Positions 351 through 28,545 of a DNA stretch of 64,000 nucleotides are shown here, in pieces. The translations under genes were made by a program, and so were the position numbers. The notes below the pieces were generated by a model. The model was not told where the DNA came from and made no database searches. It saw nothing but the letters and a program-made list of their open reading frames with translations. The first letter of the stretch is position 1. Every line of letters begins with the position of its first letter. Source of the stretch: Pseudomonadota bacterium (GTDB taxonomy: Bacteria > Pseudomonadota > Alphaproteobacteria > Rickettsiales > UBA3002); NCBI GenBank assembly GCA_040384265.1, contig JAZKJM010000002.1, positions 1-64,000 of the forward strand, in the 5' to 3' direction.

Positions 351-1538
351 CTAGCGTAGGCCAGCTTGACTTAAGGTATCTCCCCACCACTGCATCATGT
401 TGCGGCGCGCGGGGAAATGTTCCGCATGGTCGTAAGCAGCACGAACGCGGTTGCGCTCCTGGTGTGCAAGCTGGCGCTCAATTACGTCGCGTTCGAATAG
501 ACCGCTTTCATTGAGAATCGTTGATGCTGTAGCGCGGAAGCCATGCGACGTCGCTCTATCTTTGAAACCCATCGCATAGAGGGCAAATAGTAGCGTGTTG
601 CTGGTCATGCCTTTTGTAACAGCCCGCTCGTTAGGAAAAACATAGGCAGACTTACGTTGCAGCCCTAGGCGCTTTAAGAGGCGCAATATCTCGCATGCTT
701 GCGCTGAGAGCGGAACAAGATGTGCTGTACGCATTTTCATGCGATCAGCAGGAATGAGCCACTGTGCGCCATCTAAGTCGATTTCAGACCATTGTGCCTG
801 ACAGAGTTCATTCGGGCGCACCATCGTCAACATAAGAAGCTTGATCGCTAATTTGGTTTTATCGCTGCCATCGTAAGCTTCTAGTGCTTCTACAAACGAC
901 GGCAGTTCTTGTTTGGTAACATAGGCACGGTGCTTTCTCTCGCCTGTCTTTAAAAAACCACGAAGATTGATAGAGGGGTTGCTCTCTGCGCGTTCTGTAA
1001 TGATAGCATATTGGAATACTTGCCCACAAATTTGTACTGCTCTGCGCGACAATTCGAGTGCCCCACGGTCTTCAATCGCCCGCGCGACCTTTAGAAGCTC
1101 AGCGGCTGTAATGGCGCTGATTGGACGGTTACCAATTTTGGGAAAAACGTCATTCTGCAGGCGCTGCATGATTTGCTTTGCGTAATAGGGCGATTTCTTT
1201 GCCCATTTCCATTCGTGCCACTCGCGAGCAACATGCTCGAAAGTATTGCGATCCTTGGTGATAGCCAGCTGGCGCTGCTGCTTTTTATACTCGGCTGGGT
1301 CGATATTCTTGGCTTTCAGCTTTCGAGCATCGTCTCGCTTCTCACGAGCCTCAGCAAGGGACAAATCGGGGTACAAACCGAAGGACAAAACCTTCTCTTT
1401 GTTTAACCAGCGGTACTTAAAACGCCAGCATCTACCTCCTGTGGGCGTAACATAGAGATATAAACCGCCACTGTCGCCTAACTTATAAGGCTTTTCCTTC
1501 GGTTTTGCATTTTGGATTTTGAGCTGATTAAGCGGCAT
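351..1538 (-). CDS. P4-type tyrosine integrase
   Basis: A 395-residue site-specific recombinase of the P4/CP4 integrase type. The N-terminus (about residues 1-85) looks like the DUF4102 arm-DNA-binding domain, with the typical LGDSGGLYLYV stretch. A core-binding domain follows (about 95-185), then the catalytic domain (about 205-380). Visible catalytic residues are Arg in MVRPNEL, the His-x-x-Arg box in SHGFR, His in LAHQE and the nucleophile Tyr in AAYDHAEH. The full-length frame suggests an active enzyme. Its 5' end lies 178 bp from the 3' end of tRNA-Tyr, the standard position for an integrase that inserts into a tRNA gene. The element it belongs to would extend to the left, out of the window. 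Base composition is more AT-rich than neighbours to the right, consistent with transfer. Confidence 0.93.
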   Translation of the reverse strand: MPLNQLKIQNAKPKEKPYKLGDSGGLYLYVTPTGGRCWRFKYRWLNKEKVLSFGLYPDLSLAEAREKRDDARKLKAKNIDPAEYKKQQRQLAITKDRNTFEHVAREWHEWKWAKKSPYYAKQIMQRLQNDVFPKIGNRPISAITAAELLKVARAIEDRGALELSRRAVQICGQVFQYAIITERAESNPSINLRGFLKTGERKHRAYVTKQELPSFVEALEAYDGSDKTKLAIKLLMLTMVRPNELCQAQWSEIDLDGAQWLIPADRMKMRTAHLVPLSAQACEILRLLKRLGLQRKSAYVFPNERAVTKGMTSNTLLFALYAMGFKDRATSHGFRATASTILNESGLFERDVIERQLAHQERNRVRAAYDHAEHFPARRNMMQWWGDTLSQAGLR

Positions 1539-1715: not shown

Positions 1716-1800
1716 TGGTGGAGGGAGCAGGATTCGAACCTGCGAACTCATAGAGGGCAGATTTACAGTCTGCTGCCATTAACCGCTCGGCCATCCCTCC
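1716..1800 (-). tRNA. tRNA-Tyr (anticodon GTA)
   Basis: The minus strand folds as a class II tRNA with a long variable arm. The acceptor stem GGAGGGA (5' end at 1800) pairs with TCCCTCC, the anticodon loop reads CTGTAAA (GTA, tyrosine), and the T-loop has GTTCGAATC. The terminal CCA is encoded (1716-1718). Its 3' end faces the integrase gene, so it is the likely attachment site of the element on the left. Confidence 0.95.
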
Positions 1801-10061: not shown

Positions 10062-10559
10062 ATGAATTACACGCCTGCACAAATAGCTAACACATTCTTA
10101 TCAAGATACGGAGCAGCTGATGGCATTAGCCACATGAAGCTGCAAAAGCTCGTCTATTGTGTTCATGGTTGGTGGTTAGCTTATCACAATGAAGCACTTG
10201 TAAGTGAGAAGCCCCAAGTTTGGCAATATGGTCCCGTCTTTCCTTCTCTCTATAATGAGCTGAAGGTTTATGGCACAACACCAATCAAAGAGCCTCTAAA
10301 ACCATTCCCGTTTAGTGATGCGGTTCCTATCGTTCCAACTACGGATTCTAACGGCATTCAGCTCATAGATTGGGTATGGGGGCGTTATGGGCATTTGTCA
10401 GCCATGGCACTTTCGGACATGACACATAAGCCCGGAACAGCATGGCGAAAAGTTGCTGAGTCCAGAGATTACCGCGTGCCTCGTGGTTTGCCTTTAGAGG
10501 ATGTTGATGTGCGTGAAGAATTTAACCTCCTCAAAAAAGAATTTGAGGTTCAGGCTTAA
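10062..10559 (+). CDS. Panacea-domain (DUF4065) protein, putative antitoxin
   Basis: A 165-residue protein of the Panacea/SocA/GepA group. Typical features are YTPAQIANTFLSRYG at the start, KLQKLVYCVHGWWLAYHNEALVSE (about 27-50), VWQYGPVFPSLYNELK, and a C-terminal LSDMTHKPGTAW. Panacea domains are known as versatile antitoxins paired with varied toxins, and SocA works as a proteolytic adaptor. The start is set at the ATG after AGGGA; a longer form from 10032 lacks a ribosome-binding site. The stop codon is followed immediately by the ATG of a small membrane protein (TAAATG), giving a two-gene operon. Lower GC than neighbours and the position beside tRNA-Ala suggest transfer. Confidence 0.85.
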   Translation: MNYTPAQIANTFLSRYGAADGISHMKLQKLVYCVHGWWLAYHNEALVSEKPQVWQYGPVFPSLYNELKVYGTTPIKEPLKPFPFSDAVPIVPTTDSNGIQLIDWVWGRYGHLSAMALSDMTHKPGTAWRKVAESRDYRVPRGLPLEDVDVREEFNLLKKEFEVQA

Positions 10560-10901
10560 ATGGGTGTCTACAAGCAACAAGCCATTGACGAACTGAACCT
10601 TGATCGCGACCCAACGCCGGAAGAGGAACAGCAGTTATTTCTCAGCCCAGATGAGAAACGCGAGCACTTACAAAATAGAAAATTAGAAAAAGAAATAGAA
10701 CTTCGAGGGCAATATGCTTGTCGTGCATGGTGGCTTGCATTGGGTTGGGCAGCATTCTCTGGGTTTATAACTCTGCTTCAATTCTGCAAGCCGTATGGCA
10801 AACAATTAGAGCAAGCAGAATTCATAGCAATCGTGGCCACAGCACTAGCAACTATCGTCGCTTTATATGTGCAGGTGGGCAAGGGAATGTTCTCTAAATA
10901 A
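10560..10901 (+). CDS. Small two-helix membrane protein, candidate toxin partner
   Basis: A 113-residue protein I do not recognise by family. The first 65 residues are charged and probably helical (PTPEEEQQLFLSPDEKREHL; KLEKEIELRG). Two hydrophobic helices follow, AWWLALGWAAFSGFITLL and FIAIVATALATIVALYVQV, separated by a short polar loop. It starts directly after the Panacea gene stop with no gap. Some Panacea antitoxins are paired with small membrane-active toxins, so a toxin role is a reasonable inference. It could also be an accessory membrane anchor. Confidence 0.7.
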   Translation: MGVYKQQAIDELNLDRDPTPEEEQQLFLSPDEKREHLQNRKLEKEIELRGQYACRAWWLALGWAAFSGFITLLQFCKPYGKQLEQAEFIAIVATALATIVALYVQVGKGMFSK

Positions 10902-10905
10902 TATT

Positions 10906-10927
10906 ACCCAACCGGACTTCTTAGAAC
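10906..10927. repeat. Inverted repeat, right copy, flanking the Panacea gene pair
   Basis: This is the reverse-complement partner of 9949-9970 (19 of 22 positions). It begins five bases after the stop codon of the membrane protein gene. Confidence 0.55.
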
Positions 10928-11077
10928 TTTCGTTCGAACTGCCTCAAAGCAACGGCAGCTCTAGCGTTGCGCCATTTTAGTGCTGGCACGCTAGTCACGC
11001 TGACGGAACAATTTAGAACTATCGGAAGGTGGCGCTGAGGCGCGGATTTTCTGGGTTTTTTAGGGGTCTAAAAGAAA

Positions 11078-11153
11078 TGGTGGAGCTTAACGGAGTCGAA
11101 CCGTTGACCTCTTCCATGCCATGGAAGCGCTCTACCAGCTGAGCTAAAGCCCC
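11078..11153 (-). tRNA. tRNA-Ala (anticodon GGC)
   Basis: The minus strand gives acceptor GGGGCTT paired with AAGCTCC, a D-arm TAGCTCAGCTGGTAGAGC, an anticodon loop ATGGCAT (GGC, alanine), a T-loop GTTCGACTC and an encoded CCA (11078-11080). The 3' end faces the AT-rich Panacea segment. Confidence 0.95.
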
Positions 11154-11212
11154 ACATTTCCATGCGGATGAGGGTATCTAGTGGGTTTCGTGGCGTTTGG
11201 CAAGCGCGGTTT

Positions 11213-12262
11213 TTAGGCTGCCAACGACTTGTTATCAATCACGAAACGGTAGCGCACATCGCTCTTCAGCATGCGCTCGTAGGCCTCGTTGATTTTCTGG
11301 ATACTGATCAGCTCAATCTCCGAAACAATGCCGTGTTTACCGCAGAAATCCAGCATCTCCTGCGTTTCCTTGATGCCGCCGATCAGCGAGCCCGACAGGC
11401 TCTTGCGGCCCATGATGAGCGAGAACATCGCCAGCTCCGTCGGTTTTTCCGGCGCGCCGACGACCGTCATCTGCCCATCGCGCTTGAGCAGCGCGAGATA
11501 GGCATTCACATCATACGGCGCGGAAATGGTCGAGAGCAGGAAGTCGAAGCTGCCCGCATGCTTGGCCATATCCGCCGCATCTTTGGAGACGATGATATCC
11601 GTCGCGCCGAGTTTTTGCGCATCCGCGCGCTTGCTCGGGCTGGTGGTGATGACATAGGTCTCCGCACCAAATGCGGCGGCGAATTTCACCCCCATATGGC
11701 CCAACCCGCCAAGGCCGACCACGCCCACTTTATGCCCCTTGCCCACCTTCCAGTGGCGCAGCGGCGAATAGGTGGTGATGCCCGCGCACAGCAGCGGTGC
11801 CACCGCCGCCAGCTCAAGGTTTTTGGGCACGTTCAGCACAAACTCTTCGTTGACCACGATCTTGTCGGCATACCCACCATAGGTTTTCGTCACCGTGTCG
11901 CGCAGCACGCCGTTATAGGTGCCGCTGAAGCCGTTTTCGCAATATTGCTCGACCCCCTCATCGCACGACGCGCAAGCCTTGCAGGACGCCACCATGCAAC
12001 CCACCCCGACCACATCACCAACTTTAAATTTCTTTACCTTCTCGCCCACTTGCGTAACACGGCCAACGATTTCATGGCCCGGCACCATCGGGAACATGCT
12101 GCCGCCCCACTCGTCGCGCGCCTGATGAATATCCGAATGGCAAACGCCGCAATAATCGATAGCGATCAGCACATCCTGCGCACCAACCGCGCGATGCTCG
12201 AAATGGAATGGCTTAAGCGGGGTTTGCGCGTCATAGGCGGCAAATGCGTTGGTCGGGATCAT
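11213..12262 (-). CDS. NAD(P)-dependent zinc alcohol dehydrogenase (YahK/cinnamyl-type)
   Basis: A 349-residue medium-chain zinc alcohol dehydrogenase. The catalytic zinc region CGVCHSD (about 40) and GHEIVG (about 62) and the structural zinc Cys cluster CMVASCKACASCDEG (about 90-105) are intact. The nucleotide-binding GVVGLGGLGHMGVKFA is at about 175-190. This pattern fits the NADPH-preferring aldehyde reductases such as YahK. The start follows a CAGGAG box; the upstream part of the frame is not conserved-looking. It stands alone, between tRNA-Ala and an unrelated gene on the same strand. Confidence 0.92.
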   Translation of the reverse strand: MIPTNAFAAYDAQTPLKPFHFEHRAVGAQDVLIAIDYCGVCHSDIHQARDEWGGSMFPMVPGHEIVGRVTQVGEKVKKFKVGDVVGVGCMVASCKACASCDEGVEQYCENGFSGTYNGVLRDTVTKTYGGYADKIVVNEEFVLNVPKNLELAAVAPLLCAGITTYSPLRHWKVGKGHKVGVVGLGGLGHMGVKFAAAFGAETYVITTSPSKRADAQKLGATDIIVSKDAADMAKHAGSFDFLLSTISAPYDVNAYLALLKRDGQMTVVGAPEKPTELAMFSLIMGRKSLSGSLIGGIKETQEMLDFCGKHGIVSEIELISIQKINEAYERMLKSDVRYRFVIDNKSLAA

Positions 12263-12347
12263 GGCGAGCTCCTGAGTGAACGGGGATACACCACGCCTAC
12301 AGCCCCCTGCCCGCCCATGCAAATGAACTCTTCGTTACCCTGCCCGG

Positions 12348-15615: not shown

Positions 15616-16236
15616 ATGCGTCGTCACCTCATCGCCACCGCCCTTGCCACCGCCCTCATCGCCAGCACCACCGGTGCGCTGGCGGCGTACACCGCCCCTG
15701 CCACCACGCTGACCGGCGTCACCTCGGGCAACTACACGGTGGATGGATCGCATACCAACGTGCTGTTCAACCTCACCCATATGGGCTTCTCGCGCTATTA
15801 TGGCCGCTTCAACAAAGTGGATGGCACCCTGAAATTCGATGCCGCCAATCCCGAGAAAAGCACGCTCGCCATCACCATCGATGCTGCCAGCGTCGACACC
15901 AATAACGCCAAGCTCGAAGAGGAGCTGAAAGGCGCCCAGTGGTTTGATGCCGCGAAATTCCCGACCATCACCTTCACCAGCACCAGCGTGAAAAAACTGA
16001 CCGACACCACCGGCCAGGTGAGCGGCAACCTCACCCTGCACGGCGTCACCAAGCCGGTTACGCTCAGCGTCACCTTCAATGGCGCGGGTAAAAACCCGAT
16101 CATGGGCGCAGAGCAACTCGGCTTCAGCGCCACCGCCGCCATCAAACGCTCGGATTTCGGCGTCAGCCAATATGTGCCCATGGTGGGTGACGATGTGACC
16201 CTCACCATCGAATCCGAACTGCATCTCGCCAAATAA
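15616..16236 (+). CDS. YceI-family periplasmic protein (first copy)
   Basis: A 206-residue exported lipocalin-like protein. A signal peptide (about 1-23, ending TGALA) precedes the YceI domain with GNYTVDGSHTNVLFNLTHMG, FDAANPEKSTLAITIDAASV and the conserved W-F-D-A-A-K-F-P-T segment. YceI proteins bind isoprenoid chains such as polyprenol or ubiquinone. The ATG follows CACGGAG. The cytochrome b561 gene starts three bases after its stop, making a YceI-cytochrome-YceI operon. Confidence 0.93.
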   Translation: MRRHLIATALATALIASTTGALAAYTAPATTLTGVTSGNYTVDGSHTNVLFNLTHMGFSRYYGRFNKVDGTLKFDAANPEKSTLAITIDAASVDTNNAKLEEELKGAQWFDAAKFPTITFTSTSVKKLTDTTGQVSGNLTLHGVTKPVTLSVTFNGAGKNPIMGAEQLGFSATAAIKRSDFGVSQYVPMVGDDVTLTIESELHLAK

Positions 16237-16238
16237 CC

Positions 16239-16811
16239 GTGCAGCCACGCCGCACACGCTACGATCCGGTCGCGGTCACCCTTCACTGGGTGATCGCGAT
16301 TTCGATCATCACCATGATCCCGCTCGGCTTCTTCATGGGTGACCTGCCGATTTCCGTCCGCTTCGATGCCTATGCGTTCCACAAATCCCTCGGCCTCACC
16401 GTGCTTGCCCTCAGCATCTTCCGCTTCATCTGGCGGCTGATGAACCCGCCGCCGGCCCTGCCGGATGGCATGCGCGGTTTCGAGCGCCTCGCCGCCAAAG
16501 CCACTCACTGGCTGTTTTACGCCCTCATCCTCGCCATGCCGCTCACCGGCTGGCTGATGGTCTCGGCCAGCATGAAATACCCCACCGTCTTCTTCTGGCT
16601 GGCCGAAGTGCCCTTCCTGCCGATGCCGGGGGGCATCGACACGAAAGCCACCGCCCACGCTTTCAACCAATACCATGAATGGCTGGCCTATGGCGCCATC
16701 GCCCTCATCATCCTGCATATCGGTGCGGCGCTGAAGCATCATTTCATCAACCGCGACAGCGTGCTCACCCGCATGCTGCCGCTTTTCCTGCAAGGTAAGC
16801 CCCGTGCGTAA
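16239..16811 (+). CDS. Cytochrome b561 family protein
   Basis: A 190-residue four-helix membrane cytochrome. Candidate haem-ligand histidines are in VTLHWVIAISI (helix 1), AFHKSLGLTV (helix 2), FNQYHEWLAYGAIALIILH (helices 3-4) and GAALKHHF. The GTG start at 16239 is the only usable one for the first helix. These proteins move electrons between quinol and periplasmic acceptors and often sit beside yceI, as here. Its last 8 bases overlap the second yceI-like gene. Confidence 0.92.
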   Translation: MQPRRTRYDPVAVTLHWVIAISIITMIPLGFFMGDLPISVRFDAYAFHKSLGLTVLALSIFRFIWRLMNPPPALPDGMRGFERLAAKATHWLFYALILAMPLTGWLMVSASMKYPTVFFWLAEVPFLPMPGGIDTKATAHAFNQYHEWLAYGAIALIILHIGAALKHHFINRDSVLTRMLPLFLQGKPRA

Positions 16812-18173: not shown

Positions 18174-18249
18174 GCCGATGTAGCTCAGCTGGTAGAGCAA
18201 CTGATTCGTAATTAGTAGGTCGCAGGTTCGATTCCTGTCATCGGCACCA
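18174..18249 (+). tRNA. tRNA-Thr (anticodon CGT)
   Basis: Acceptor GCCGATG pairs with CATCGGC. The D-arm is TAGCTCAGCTGGTAGAGC, the anticodon loop TTCGTAA (CGT, threonine, ACG codons) and the T-loop GTTCGATTC, and the CCA is encoded at 18247-18249. It is followed by an AT-rich segment ending in a copy of its own 3' part. Confidence 0.95.
18225..18242. repeat. Attachment-like direct repeat, left copy within tRNA-Thr
   Basis: GGTTCGATTCCTGTCATC, in the T-arm and acceptor 3' strand of tRNA-Thr, recurs exactly at 19433-19450. It marks the left edge of a 1.2-kb AT-rich island. Confidence 0.8.
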
Positions 18250-18489
18250 TTTTTCTAATATAAAAACTGCTTATAAGCTTCTTTTGCTGGTGTGACATGC
18301 TAGTGAGACATAGTATGCCTAGCTGCTTAGGCATTGATATAACATCCGAACAATGAAAAAGTAACGGTGGGCGCTACGGCTAAGTAAACGGTAGCCCTAA
18401 TAGGTATATTTTTTCTGTAGACAACACATATAAGAAGTCTAAGAAAATATGAAGGCCTGCATGTATCATATTATGCTTTGAAAGGCGTT

Positions 18490-18924
18490 GTGTTGAGCTT
18501 CATCCCGCAATGGCTTAATGATGCAAATACCCTTGTGTCGCTACTTGGCTTTGGCCTTACTGTGTATGTGACCATTACGCTAAGCTCTATCAAGAGTTCC
18601 TTTTTAAGCCGTGCTCGGCTTCCGGATGTTATCAAAGATTTGGACAGCGCGTCGTCAGCGTTGAATGGATGTCTCAATCAATGGCCAGACCAACGTAACG
18701 ATGCTATGATTGGGATAAAGACTATAATCTCGCTGCTTCGTGCAACAAAAAGCATGGTACCAAAATCCAATAGAAGTGAAATTAAAAGACTCGTGGTGAC
18801 GCTGGAACAAATATCTAAGCCAGCAGCGAATCTCAGCGTCGATGAAATTTGGGCGGTGTACGGTGACATTAAGTCCGTGATAGTCAGCATCACGCAAGCA
18901 TCTCTAAATAGTAAGTGGGAGTGA
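18490..18924 (+). CDS. Unrecognised membrane-anchored protein of the tRNA-Thr island
   Basis: A 144-residue protein I cannot assign. One N-terminal transmembrane helix (LVSLLGFGLTVYVTITL, about 12-28) is followed by a soluble helical domain with few motifs (LPDVIKDLDSASSALNGCLN; RSEIKRLVVTLEQISKPAAN). The GTG at 18490 is preferred because GAAAGG lies four bases before it; the frame is open to a TTG at 18478. The base composition is clearly more AT-rich than the flanking genes. The next gene starts three bases after its stop, so the two form an operon. Confidence 0.65.
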   Translation: MLSFIPQWLNDANTLVSLLGFGLTVYVTITLSSIKSSFLSRARLPDVIKDLDSASSALNGCLNQWPDQRNDAMIGIKTIISLLRATKSMVPKSNRSEIKRLVVTLEQISKPAANLSVDEIWAVYGDIKSVIVSITQASLNSKWE

Positions 18925-18927
18925 CCT

Positions 18928-19362
18928 GTGGTTCCTGAAAATCAATTAACTGCATTTGTCGTCAACTTAAACAAGCTGACTTCACTGGACACGGTTCGAT
19001 GGAGAGCTGAACGTCCACCTGCCTCACTTACAGGCACGGATGACATTATAACACTATTCCTTAGCGCTAGTTATGGTGGTTATCACTTGGCACTGTATCA
19101 ACGTCAGAAAAAAACCTTCGTTAATCCCGATGGCGGGAGTTTTATACGCACGATGACAATCACAGGCTTCAGTGAGAAGTTAGAGCCTAGATGGCATAAA
19201 GAGACGATATTAGGAGTTTTAGAATCGGGAAGTGTAGTGTGGGAGACCACATCTCCGCATTCGGCAATATCCGACCTTATGGAAACAGCCAGAGCTAAAG
19301 CTGCTAAGGTAGATTCTTTATTTAAAATGCTGATTCCAAGCTCTACTGAGAGCGGGTCTTGA
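18928..19362 (+). CDS. Unrecognised soluble protein of the tRNA-Thr island
   Basis: A 144-residue soluble protein without a family I know. It has mixed alpha/beta composition (TDDIITLFLSASYGGYHLAL; GGSFIRTMTITGFSEKLEPR) and a Lys-rich amphipathic C-terminus. The GTG start follows GGGAG. It is paired with the membrane-anchored protein upstream, and both lie between the two copies of the tRNA-Thr repeat. The pairing of an anchored and a soluble small protein in an island suggests a defence or toxin-antitoxin function, but nothing in the sequence proves it. Confidence 0.65.
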   Translation: MVPENQLTAFVVNLNKLTSLDTVRWRAERPPASLTGTDDIITLFLSASYGGYHLALYQRQKKTFVNPDGGSFIRTMTITGFSEKLEPRWHKETILGVLESGSVVWETTSPHSAISDLMETARAKAAKVDSLFKMLIPSSTESGS

Positions 19363-19432
19363 ATTCGGCGTAATTTTCTGGTGGGCCCATCAATCTGTGT
19401 GTCTGATTGTCCCCATGGGGCTATGCTAAATG

Positions 19433-19450
19433 GGTTCGATTCCTGTCATC
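19433..19450. repeat. Attachment-like direct repeat, right copy
   Basis: This is an exact 18-base copy of the tRNA-Thr 3' segment (18225-18242), followed by ACCAT as in the tRNA but lacking three bases (GGC). It ends ten bases before the antiporter gene stop, so the island inserted between tRNA-Thr and the antiporter gene. Confidence 0.8.
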
Positions 19451-22090: not shown

Positions 22091-23698
22091 TTAATCGACC
22101 TGCTTCTCGTGCGGCTTGCTGACGAACTCCGCACTGCCCGGCAGCGGCGCCTGCTCAAGGCGCAGCTTGCTGTGGCGCATGCCGTAGAACACGTAAATCA
22201 ACAGCCCAACCAGCAGGTATGGCCCGGTATACATCAACACATCCCAGCCGCTGGTGGTGACCACAATCGCCCCCGAACCATCGCGCCCGAAGAAGATCGA
22301 GTAGACGAGATAACCGCAGGTCGCCATGCCCAGCAGCGGCGTAAACGGCATGCCCGGCGTGCGGAATGGACGCGGCAGGTTCGGCTGTTTGCGGCGCAGA
22401 TAAAGCACGCTGAAGCATACAATCATAAACGCCAGCAACGTGCCCAGGCTGACCAGATCGCCCAGCAGCTGAATCGGTGTCACCCCGGCTGCCACCGCAA
22501 CCACGGCACCCACCACCAGCGTGTTCACATACGGCGTCTGGAATTTCGCATGCACCTTGCAGAAGAAGGATGGCAGCAACCCATCGCGGCCCATCACATA
22601 AAAAATCCGCGTCTGGCCGTAGATCAGCACCATCATCACCGAGCTCAAGCCCAGGATCGCACCGATTTTGATCAGGAACGCAAACCAGCCAAGGCCGATT
22701 TTATCGACCGCAACCGACATTGGATCCGCCACCGCCAGCTGTTGGTAGGGCACAATCCCGGTCAGCACCGCCGACACGCCGATATAGAGAATCGTGCAGA
22801 CCAGCAGCGACCCGAGAATGCCAAACGGCATATCTTTCTGGGGGTTTTTGGCTTCCTGCGCCGCGGTCGAAACCGCTTCGAACCCGACATAGGCGAAGAA
22901 GATAATGCTCGCCGCACGGAACACGCCATCCCAGCCATACACGCCCGGCGCCGTGTTCTCGGGGATGAACGGATGCCAATTATTCACATCGATATAAAAC
23001 GCGCCGATGACCACAAACAAAATCACCACCGCCAGCTTGATGAAGACGATGACATTATTCACCTTCGCCGATTCGCTGACGCCGACAATGAGCAACGCCA
23101 CCACCGCGATAATCCCTGCGAACGCCGGCAGGTTGAAGAAGCCGCGCACCAGCTCGCCCGCATGGCTCAGCAGCTCACCGCTGGCGCTAAACGTGTAGCC
23201 CAGCGCCTCAAACATTGGGTGATACACATCCGTAATGCGAATGCTTTGGCCGGTCGCCGCCGTTAATTCCGGCGGAATCATAATGCCAAACCCGAGCAGG
23301 AAACTGTTCATATAGCCCGACCAGCCGACCGCAACCGTTGCCGCCGCCACGCCATATTCCAGCACCAGCAACCAGCCCATCACCCAGGCCAAACCCTCGC
23401 CCAGCGTCGCATAAGCATAGGTGTAGGCACTACCCGAAATCGGCAGCACCGAGGCAAGCTCGGCATAGCACAGGCCCACGAACGCGCAGGCGATACCGGT
23501 AAACACAAAGCTCAGCATGAGCGCCGGGCCCGCATGGTTGGCGGCCGCGGTGCCCGTCATCACGAAAATCCCGGCGCCGATGATGCAGCCGATCCCAAGG
23601 CTGATGAGGTTCCATTTGCCAAGCGTGCGCTTCAGCCCGTTGCTGTTGGCTTCGCTCTGGATCTGCTCAACGGTCTTGCGCAGGAATAGGTTTTTCAT
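22091..23698 (-). CDS. APC-superfamily amino acid permease
   Basis: A 535-residue permease of the cationic amino acid transporter/YfnA type. It has about 12-14 helices and begins LGIGCIIGAGIFVMTGTAA, the family's unwound first helix. Other conserved parts are FFAYVGFEAVSTAAQEAKNPQKDMP (helix 6) and YGQTRIFYVMGRDGLLP. It imports amino acids, perhaps by proton symport; the specificity cannot be told. The ATG at 23698 follows GGCGAGGTCCC, giving a start eight residues shorter than the longest frame. Confidence 0.92.
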   Translation of the reverse strand: MKNLFLRKTVEQIQSEANSNGLKRTLGKWNLISLGIGCIIGAGIFVMTGTAAANHAGPALMLSFVFTGIACAFVGLCYAELASVLPISGSAYTYAYATLGEGLAWVMGWLLVLEYGVAAATVAVGWSGYMNSFLLGFGIMIPPELTAATGQSIRITDVYHPMFEALGYTFSASGELLSHAGELVRGFFNLPAFAGIIAVVALLIVGVSESAKVNNVIVFIKLAVVILFVVIGAFYIDVNNWHPFIPENTAPGVYGWDGVFRAASIIFFAYVGFEAVSTAAQEAKNPQKDMPFGILGSLLVCTILYIGVSAVLTGIVPYQQLAVADPMSVAVDKIGLGWFAFLIKIGAILGLSSVMMVLIYGQTRIFYVMGRDGLLPSFFCKVHAKFQTPYVNTLVVGAVVAVAAGVTPIQLLGDLVSLGTLLAFMIVCFSVLYLRRKQPNLPRPFRTPGMPFTPLLGMATCGYLVYSIFFGRDGSGAIVVTTSGWDVLMYTGPYLLVGLLIYVFYGMRHSKLRLEQAPLPGSAEFVSKPHEKQVD

Positions 23699-23811
23699 GG
23701 GACCTCGCCTTTGTGATTTCACTCGTAGCTCAGAGCCTTAGCAGCTTGAAAACCGCCGTGCAAGCACTCCCTGCCGCCCCTGACAGGCACATGCGTCTAT
23801 TACACTCAGTC

Positions 23812-27591: not shown

Positions 27592-28545
27592 ATGACCACG
27601 ACGCAACACGCCACCCCGGCTAACTGGCTGGGGTGGCGTGATTCGTTTCTGGAGATGCTCATCGCCACCCGCGGTGCCTCCCTCGCCACCCGCGACGCCT
27701 ACGCCCGCGACCTGGCCGACTTCTTCGCCTTCGCCGCCGCCAGCGGTTTCGCGATGGACGCCATCACCCACCGCAACATCACCGATTACCTGAGCGACCA
27801 GACCGCACGCGCGATGGCCAGCACCACCCTCGCCCGCCGCCGCTCCACCCTCACCCAATGGTTCAAATTCCTCATCAGCGAAGGCATCGCCCACGAGAAC
27901 CCGATGCTGCTGCTCAGCGCCGCCAAGCGCAGCCGCCGCCTACCCAAGCTGCTCTCGAAAGACGAAGTGCAGCAGCTCATCGCCACCGCCCATGCCGATC
28001 ATTCCAACGAAGGTGCACGCCTCAATGCGCTGATGGAAATCATCTACGCCTCTGGCATGCGGGTGAGCGAGCTGGTCACCCTCACCCTGCGCCATATCGG
28101 CCGCGACCCCAAACACCCGAAAAAAATCCAGCCCTATTTCATCATCACCGGCAAAGGCGGCAAGGATCGGCTGGTGCCGCTGCATAGCGGCGCGCTGCAA
28201 GCGCTGGAGCGCTACCTGTCCGTGCGCGACCACTTCATCCCCGCCAAGCGCGACTCGGTGTATATCTTCCCCTCGCACGGCAAATCCGGCCACCTCACCC
28301 GCCAGCGTTTCGGGCAAATGCTCAAAACCCTGTGCCTGAACGCCGCCATCGACCCGGCCCGCTGTTCACCGCACACGTTGCGTCATTCCTTCGCCACCCA
28401 CCTGCTCGAAGGCGGCGCCGACCTGCGCGTCATCCAGGAACTGCTCGGCCACGCCGATATCGCCACCACGCAGATCTACACCCACGTCGCCGATAGCCGT
28501 TTAATTTCCGTCGTCAATGAGAAGCACCCGCTCGCGCAGGAGTGA
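27592..28545 (+). CDS. xerD: Tyrosine recombinase XerD
   Basis: A 317-residue chromosome-dimer-resolution recombinase. It has an N-terminal SAM-like core-binding domain (about 15-100) and a catalytic domain with Arg in ASGMRVSEL, Lys in [11 protein letters not shown], the [19 protein letters not shown] box, HAD, and the nucleophile Tyr in TTQIYTHV. It acts with XerC at the dif site near FtsK. It is assigned as XerD rather than XerC by the [20 protein letters not shown] stretch and by the alphaproteobacterial position next to aroK; the paralogues are similar. Confidence 0.9.

Follow-up and report, generated by a model that had tools for sequence, protein, structure and literature searches.

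How did two small genes of 144 codons each come to lie in a 1.2-kb AT-rich scrap beside a tRNA-Thr gene, and what might they do there? The question arises from a window of 64,000 nucleotides at the start of contig JAZKJM010000002.1 of a Pseudomonadota bacterium (positions are those of the window unless another record is named) and from a sequence-only reading of it, which had proposed a site-specifically integrated unit devoid of an integrase. The explanation that we favour, with a probability of roughly 0.55, is that the unit is what a deletion left of a temperate element, a stub from its attL side that still has the att-adjacent gene pair, probably an anti-phage membrane effector and its soluble partner. 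The remnant origin of the unit is the best-supported part of this explanation, and we consider it highly probable.

The tRNA-Thr gene (anticodon CGT; 18174 to 18249, forward strand) is intact (ARAGORN; Rfam RF00005, 73.8 bits) and would be the attachment-site gene. Its 3′ half contains the 18-bp core GGTTCGATTCCTGTCATC (18225 to 18242), the putative attL, which covers the T arm and the start of the acceptor 3′ strand; an exact copy at 19433 to 19450 on the same strand is the putative decayed attR. After the core, the tRNA continues with GGCACCATTT and copy 2 with ACCATTT, the GGC of the tRNA being missing. The 18-mer occurs twice in the whole assembly of 2,004,024 bases, both times at this locus, and the control word, the 18-mer read backwards, does not occur in it. 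Local alignment of the last 60 nt of the tRNA with the 500 nt 3′ of the second gene gave a score of 19.0, compared to a maximum of 17.5 in 1000 shuffles, and a negative comparison of the tRNA tail with the 240-nt leader before the first gene gave 7.5, a score matched by 967 of 1000 shuffles. From copy to copy the unit measures 1208 bp, and the segment enclosed (18243 to 19432), foreign by composition, has 43.5% GC compared to 59.6% and 60.9% in the flanks; equally low values were found in 0.16% of the 1190-bp stretches of the window, taken in 50-bp steps. These results confirm the proposed exact tRNA repeat, followed by ACCAT, at the close of an AT-rich two-gene segment.

No integrase lies inside the unit, as had been proposed, and the nearest matches to PF00589 are at 423 to 920 and 27949 to 28497. 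The unit thus combines a far boundary marked by a repeated tRNA 3′ end in direct orientation and a GC content unlike that of its host, both expected of a tRNA-integrated island, with the lack of an integrase of its own among its ORFs scanned for PF00589, and for this reason we term it a relic and not a functional island. The stop codon of the neighbouring gene follows 10 nt after the end of copy 2; we read this gene from its ORF, and not from a family scan, as a KefB-like transporter. With the GGC missing from copy 2, a crossover between the cores would now yield a tRNA whose acceptor stem is incomplete; precise excision would thus damage tRNA-Thr(CGT), and we infer that the stub is stranded. 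Between 17900 and 19700, all non-tRNA matches to Rfam scored under their gathering thresholds and overlapped the tRNA. Promoter-like sites numbered fewer than in shuffled sequence (1 compared to 2.5), and terminator-like sites were near the shuffle mean (2 compared to 1.3).

The two genes, here called A and B, follow each other on the forward strand with three bases between them, starting 240 nt 3′ of the tRNA. Gene A (18490 to 18924 including the stop codon) appears in the ORF list as 148 residues from a TTG at 18478; the GTG at 18490, giving 144 codons, fits its relatives, and with this start the description of the pair as 144 codons each, one product membrane-anchored and one soluble, is borne out. 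The single hydrophobic segment of A (residues 16 to 34) has a modest KD19 of 1.74, and the five relatives for which it was measured have higher values (1.89 to 2.45). No lysine or arginine precedes it and four lie within the next 15 residues. Under the positive-inside rule basic residues mark the cytosolic side of a transmembrane helix, so the C-terminal part of A is predicted to lie in the cytosol. The AlphaFold model of A, a long N-terminal helix followed by a helical bundle, has a pLDDT of 74.5, with values of about 50 or lower over residues 1 to 40. Gene B (18928 to 19362) starts with a GTG, has GGGAG 5′ of it and encodes 144 residues, predicted to form a soluble alpha/beta protein of one helix, four strands and two helices; the pLDDT of its model is 80.0, falling below 50 at residues 74 to 83, within an insertion missing from the aligned relatives. 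Homology to the first and second genes of pairs found elsewhere adds to both gene calls.

Neither protein could be placed in a known family. Pfam, PHROGs, NCBIfam and PADLOC (version 2.0.0) gave no significant family for A or B; weak matches in Pfam, PHROGs and NCBIfam, including Tom22, DUF4130, BrxA, Ets and phrog_6179, were below curated cut-offs or not significant and were rejected. No PADLOC model matched A or B of the window, and the Klebsiella homologue of A has one weak match (Cas8a, E 0.0084). Fold searches at E 0.001 returned no match for A in the PDB and none for B in the PDB or BFVD, and the B profile gave a best E of 0.15 against PDB sequences. Compared with the cystatin-like fold, B showed no Foldseek E at or below 0.001, and the top VIA Z score was 4.1 (PARC6), with cystatins reaching 3.9. 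Literature searches of main texts by protein accession and locus tag, some old-style tags being guessed, did not find the pair, which may nevertheless be among the candidates tabulated by DefensePredictor (PMC13092281) or by Vassallo et al. 2022 (PMC9519451). The profile and structure searches called for by the sequence-only reading therefore ended without a significant family or fold, while distant homologous pairs did come to light.

Among 72,556 plasmid records, tblastn with A matched three, two Klebsiella plasmids (4e-6) and the circular E. coli record NZ_CP148393.1 (7e-3), and tblastn with B matched the last of these (E 9e-4) and missed the Klebsiella plasmids; in all three records the two genes are side by side. 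With the window proteins as the sole queries, no match to either was seen in 50,697 phage records. The pair was further found in 12 of 5426 E. coli genomes, in two viral contigs (L030 and L031, the latter also in a longer version, L034) and in 2 of 345 genome contigs, belonging to Erwinia sp. ErVv1 (L036) and Photobacterium chitinilyticum (L037). The genome-contig scan with B of the window was negative in all 56 stretches. Of seven scans of viral contigs, three yielded L030 and L031/L034, three yielded nothing and one yielded L025, which was set aside as a chance match because it spans 29 residues and its frame runs antisense to other ORFs. The order A-B is kept in E. coli, Klebsiella, both viral contigs, Erwinia and Photobacterium, with 1 to 5 nt between the genes and, in L030, an overlap of 4 nt. 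Profile comparison of the window with five pairs, Photobacterium excluded, gave 98.5% for A (E 1.5e-15) and 97.7% for B (E 2.4e-12). The Photobacterium B joins at 98.0%, and its A is weakly similar (34.8% over 66 columns), its identity resting on position, length and the motif of a transmembrane segment plus basic residues. With the B profile, the window's own copy was the one found in 385 genomes of the class and in 398 of the phylum (overlapping samples), and scans of two other classes, run without a positive control, gave 0 of 78 and 0 of 48 genomes. Our impression is that the pair is rare, the contig scans being based on short exact patterns that miss divergent members. No closely related copy of the window pair was found in these searches, and the known contexts of the pair are seven including the window, two of them sharing one block.

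Relatives of the window genome were searched for the pair and for its site. Of 55 relatives, including 13 from the same family and 37 that are at least 90% complete, none had A or B at E 0.001 (searches used one-protein queries, and some assemblies are incomplete); a constant presence of the two genes at this site, which would have spoken against the sequence-only reading, was not observed. In the one relative in which the matching site is the same tRNA (G001, of the same genus; locus L006), tRNA-Thr(CGT) carries a single copy of the core with one mismatch and no pair in the 3.1 kb read, so a repeat without the genes was not encountered there either. Its neighbours match 15749 to 16627 and 22286 to 23744 of the window, with the tRNA inverted against them, and the window's transporter was not matched in that genome at 1e-60. 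We therefore regard it as an unoccupied site in a rearranged locus and not as a clean empty site, and the evidence on empty sites comes from this one relative; the larger islands that the proposed check looked for were seen at tRNA-Thr(CGT) in no relative, and the deletion is accordingly proposed by analogy. In the other 12 family relatives the best matches were tRNA-Ala(TGC) in five, tRNA-Thr(GGT) in four, tRNA-Lys in two and a place with no tRNA call in one, and exact cores were at tRNA-Ala(TGC) (five) or at a locus with no tRNA call (one). In the window genome itself, only one of six matching places is tRNA-Thr(CGT), and another is tRNA-Thr(TGT). The exact 18-mer sits within tRNA-Ala(TGC) at five loci (L007, L009, L010, L011 and L012), and the tRNA-Ala(TGC) of the window genome does not contain it.

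The analogy is provided by a lambdoid-type prophage at ssrA of E. coli, which carries the pair as WP_000353836.1 and WP_000551278.1 and was followed in an integrated prophage (NZ_LR883965.1), a remnant (strain HS) and a circle (NZ_CP148393.1). In the isolate NZ_LR883965.1, the exact 25-bp end of ssrA is present at ssrA and again about 44 kb away, and the prophage between these two cores has genes for terminase, portal and tail. Gene A starts 182 nt from the core at ssrA, and the integrase (WP_000531803), about 40 kb from the pair, is found some 2.3 kb inward of the far core. Eight of the twelve E. coli records were inspected, namely one circle and seven chromosomes; the other four are H7, H10, H11 and H12, of which three carry the name HS. 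In each of the seven chromosomes the distance from ssrA to the start of A is 182 nt. The circular record of 44,611 bp has, in the 16.4 kb searched, one core between the WP_000531803 block and gene A, as expected of attP. In strain HS, ssrA and the pair persist along with tail-fibre remnants, IS elements and a broken dinI-like gene; there is one core copy and no integrase annotation in 32.8 kb, a stretch that reaches the resumed chromosomal genes. In our reading HS has come to the outcome seen in the window, short of one step. A tRNA-like string 3′ of the E. coli pair was also considered as a second ssrA end; its score was equalled by 509 of 1000 shuffles and it was dropped on that account, the far end of the prophage being marked by the exact second core. 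Past this far core (L068, 10171 to 15395) lie a second integrase-domain gene, an ATP-binding protein and a response-regulator-receiver protein, the latter two with no PADLOC match; this region is possibly a second element stacked at ssrA.

The E. coli prophage and the window are alike in the homology, order and spacing of the pair, in the short leader that follows the RNA gene and in having no integrase adjacent to it, and they differ in that the former is about 44 kb at a tmRNA gene and the latter a 1.2-kb stub at tRNA-Thr, with proteins 19% (A) and 27% (B) identical. Because the attL-side genes of the prophage are opposite its integrase end, a single deletion can strand the pair next to an RNA gene without any integrase, and att-adjacent cargo can thus outlast its element. 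In the viral contig L030 the pair lies at the contig end, 39 nt after an integrase-like gene whose lambda-integrase arm domain scores above the Pfam cut-off and whose catalytic domain scores below it (21.1 vs 27.1 bits). Taken together, the pair 182 bp inside attL, the integrase at the opposite end and the HS remnant make site-specific integration followed by deletion, the "tail of a deleted island" of the sequence-only reading, the best fit. A temperate element, prophage or satellite, would have entered tRNA-Thr(CGT) through the action of a tyrosine integrase on the 18-bp core. Later, an internal deletion would have taken out the whole stretch from the pair to the far att site, including the integrase, and left attL, the leader, A, B and a decayed attR.

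Elsewhere the pair appears as accessory cargo of several different elements, either beside an att site or in a cargo slot. The viral contig L034 and the Erwinia contig L036 have a common backbone, 88.5% over the 5.8 kb that contain a primase-helicase gene on one side of a slot and 89.6% over 423 bp across from it. In both contigs the slot holds the pair, accompanied in L034 by a TIR gene and in L036 by a gene for a 156-residue protein. The primase-helicase of L036 has the domains Zn_Ribbon_Prim, Toprim_3 and D5_N, and its L034 counterpart was seen as an ORF and by DNA similarity; from these domains we take the backbone to be P4-like. P4-like satellites are characterised by an alpha-type primase-helicase, psu/sid/delta and int. 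None of these genes is present in the window unit, whose ORFs are A and B alone, so that the earlier suggestion of a "satellite-like" unit holds for carriers of the pair and not for the unit itself. A variable slot in a P4-like backbone, as occupied by the pair with TIR or other genes, resembles the cargo hotspots described in part of Rousset et al. 2022 (PMC9122126), where the E. coli hotspot lies between psu and int; the slot of the pair borders the alpha-type primase-helicase gene. A 2.6-kb block of pair and TIR gene is shared at 91% between L034 (1547 to 4178) and a Klebsiella conjugative plasmid (L027, 7677 to 10309), so these two copies are not independent and reflect one history; within this block, TIR and the pair may work together.

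Several neighbours of the pair are themselves defence genes. In Photobacterium (L037, 6338 to 9370), Septu PtuA (E 1.6e-187) and PtuB (1.2e-78) and a PDC-S64-like gene are directly upstream, PtuB ending 128 nt before the pair. The TIR genes beside the pair in Klebsiella and in L031/L034 match PADLOC ThsB (3.6e-5 and 3.9e-5), and the one in the viral contig matches Pfam TIR_2 (1e-10). L034 also carries, at 10112 to 12327, a DRT type 8 reverse transcriptase (Drt8, 1.4e-145) with its PD-(D/E)XK partner (RTasPDDEXK, 7e-64), 7.4 kb from the pair, and Erwinia has an LmuB-like ATPase (1.1e-17) at 6.7 kb. Known or candidate defence genes are thus found within 10 kb in four of the six contexts outside the window (E. 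coli, Klebsiella, L030, L034, Erwinia and Photobacterium), a raw count in which two of the four share one block and the PADLOC scan covered the contexts other than L030. A ParA-type ATPase of E. coli matching PDC-M28B (2e-7), the sole PADLOC match in five E. coli neighbours, was left uncounted. Septu, DRT type 8 and the ThsB-like TIR are neighbours and not family members, since their PADLOC models do not match A or B. The expectation that such an island is a home of defence modules therefore holds at the level of neighbour context (Septu, DRT type 8, TIR and LmuB-like genes), and from this context we lean towards regarding the pair as a candidate defence module. Prophages and satellites are described as reservoirs of defence genes in parts of two published studies (PMC9122126, PMC9519451).

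How such a module might act can be proposed with less assurance. A would be anchored in the inner membrane, its helical domain facing the cytosol, B would be a soluble partner that senses phage or keeps A inactive, and infection would free A to impair the membrane, a defence of the abortive-infection type. This arrangement, in which the membrane-anchored A is held or triggered by B, seems to us the most likely mechanism, yet a tentative one; the preference for it comes from the transmembrane anchor of A and from the view, expressed in part of PMC9122126, that transmembrane proteins of such systems are effectors. Just as provisionally, we suggest that A and B could be an anti-phage system of two genes not described before, in which a soluble protein without a recognised fold controls a single-pass membrane effector. 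Prophages, plasmids and P4-like satellites of Enterobacterales and Vibrionaceae would carry it at att ends and in cargo slots, and it would have reached the distant lineage of the window and outlived its carrier there.

Other origins of the unit were weighed against deletion of a larger element. The downstream repeat could be a chance match or a duplicated tRNA fragment, the genes having arrived in another way; the occurrence of the same word in tRNA-Ala(TGC) of five relatives, which makes it not unique to tRNA-Thr(CGT), and the missing GGC of copy 2 are compatible with this, but the restriction of the word to two copies in this genome, the fit of the AT-rich segment between them and the comparable layout at E. 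coli ssrA render it very improbable. An origin as a self-contained 1.2-kb cassette, mobilised as a single piece, with an att core at either end, by an integrase supplied in trans and never part of a larger element, would account for cores that bound the unit and for contents consisting of the pair alone. The six PF00589 genes of the genome also speak for it, three of them having frames of 399 to 467 residues, which we read as above the usual Xer size. Every other copy examined, however, resides in a larger element, a plasmid or a gene-rich locus, the second core is decayed and no further copy of the whole unit was found in the genome, so we hold this origin to be improbable.

Alternatives to abortive infection concern the role of the pair. 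In superinfection exclusion, an inner-membrane complex of A and B would stop the genome entry or establishment of competing phages and the cell would survive. The predicted membrane anchor of A agrees with this, as does the carriage of the pair by prophages beside int or att, a usual location of lysogenic-conversion genes; the occurrence of the pair next to TIR on a plasmid, and next to Septu in Photobacterium, points away from it, no observation indicates a way of blocking entry, and we judge it unlikely. That the two genes serve only to stabilise their element, as a toxin-antitoxin or addiction module devoid of a defence function, appears a little less likely again. Two small genes that nearly touch, and overlap by 4 nt in L030, would suit such a pair, and PD-T4-10, a two-ORF system of unknown proteins, turned out to be a toxin-antitoxin that also defends, according to part of Vassallo et al. 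2022 (PMC9519451). Against it, neither A nor B has significant similarity to toxin or antitoxin models, and the genes are always together in the copies examined, though the searches could miss single ones. PD-T4-10 also resembles the pair in layout, as a defence unit of two small, tightly packed genes.

The deleted-element reading thus leaves a locus of two unequal parts: an att-bounded relic at a tRNA gene is ordinary, and the A-B family is one for which Pfam, PHROGs, NCBIfam and PADLOC have no model. An anonymous 1.2-kb scrap becomes a member of a defined, rare two-gene family, a small accessory module of mobile elements and a good candidate for defence, and the commensal E. coli HS offers a ready strain that carries it. 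If the defence role is true, the pair would be a small membrane-effector system absent from the model libraries used.

Two further features of the window were recorded. At the start of the contig, a tyrosine integrase (351 to 1538, reverse strand) lies beside tRNA-Tyr(GTA) (1716 to 1800, reverse strand); the integrase probably belongs to another island, which continues past the contig edge. Between 53337 and 54895, several exact 18-mers and longer runs are repeated about 1.0 to 1.2 kb apart, pointing to a locally duplicated segment.
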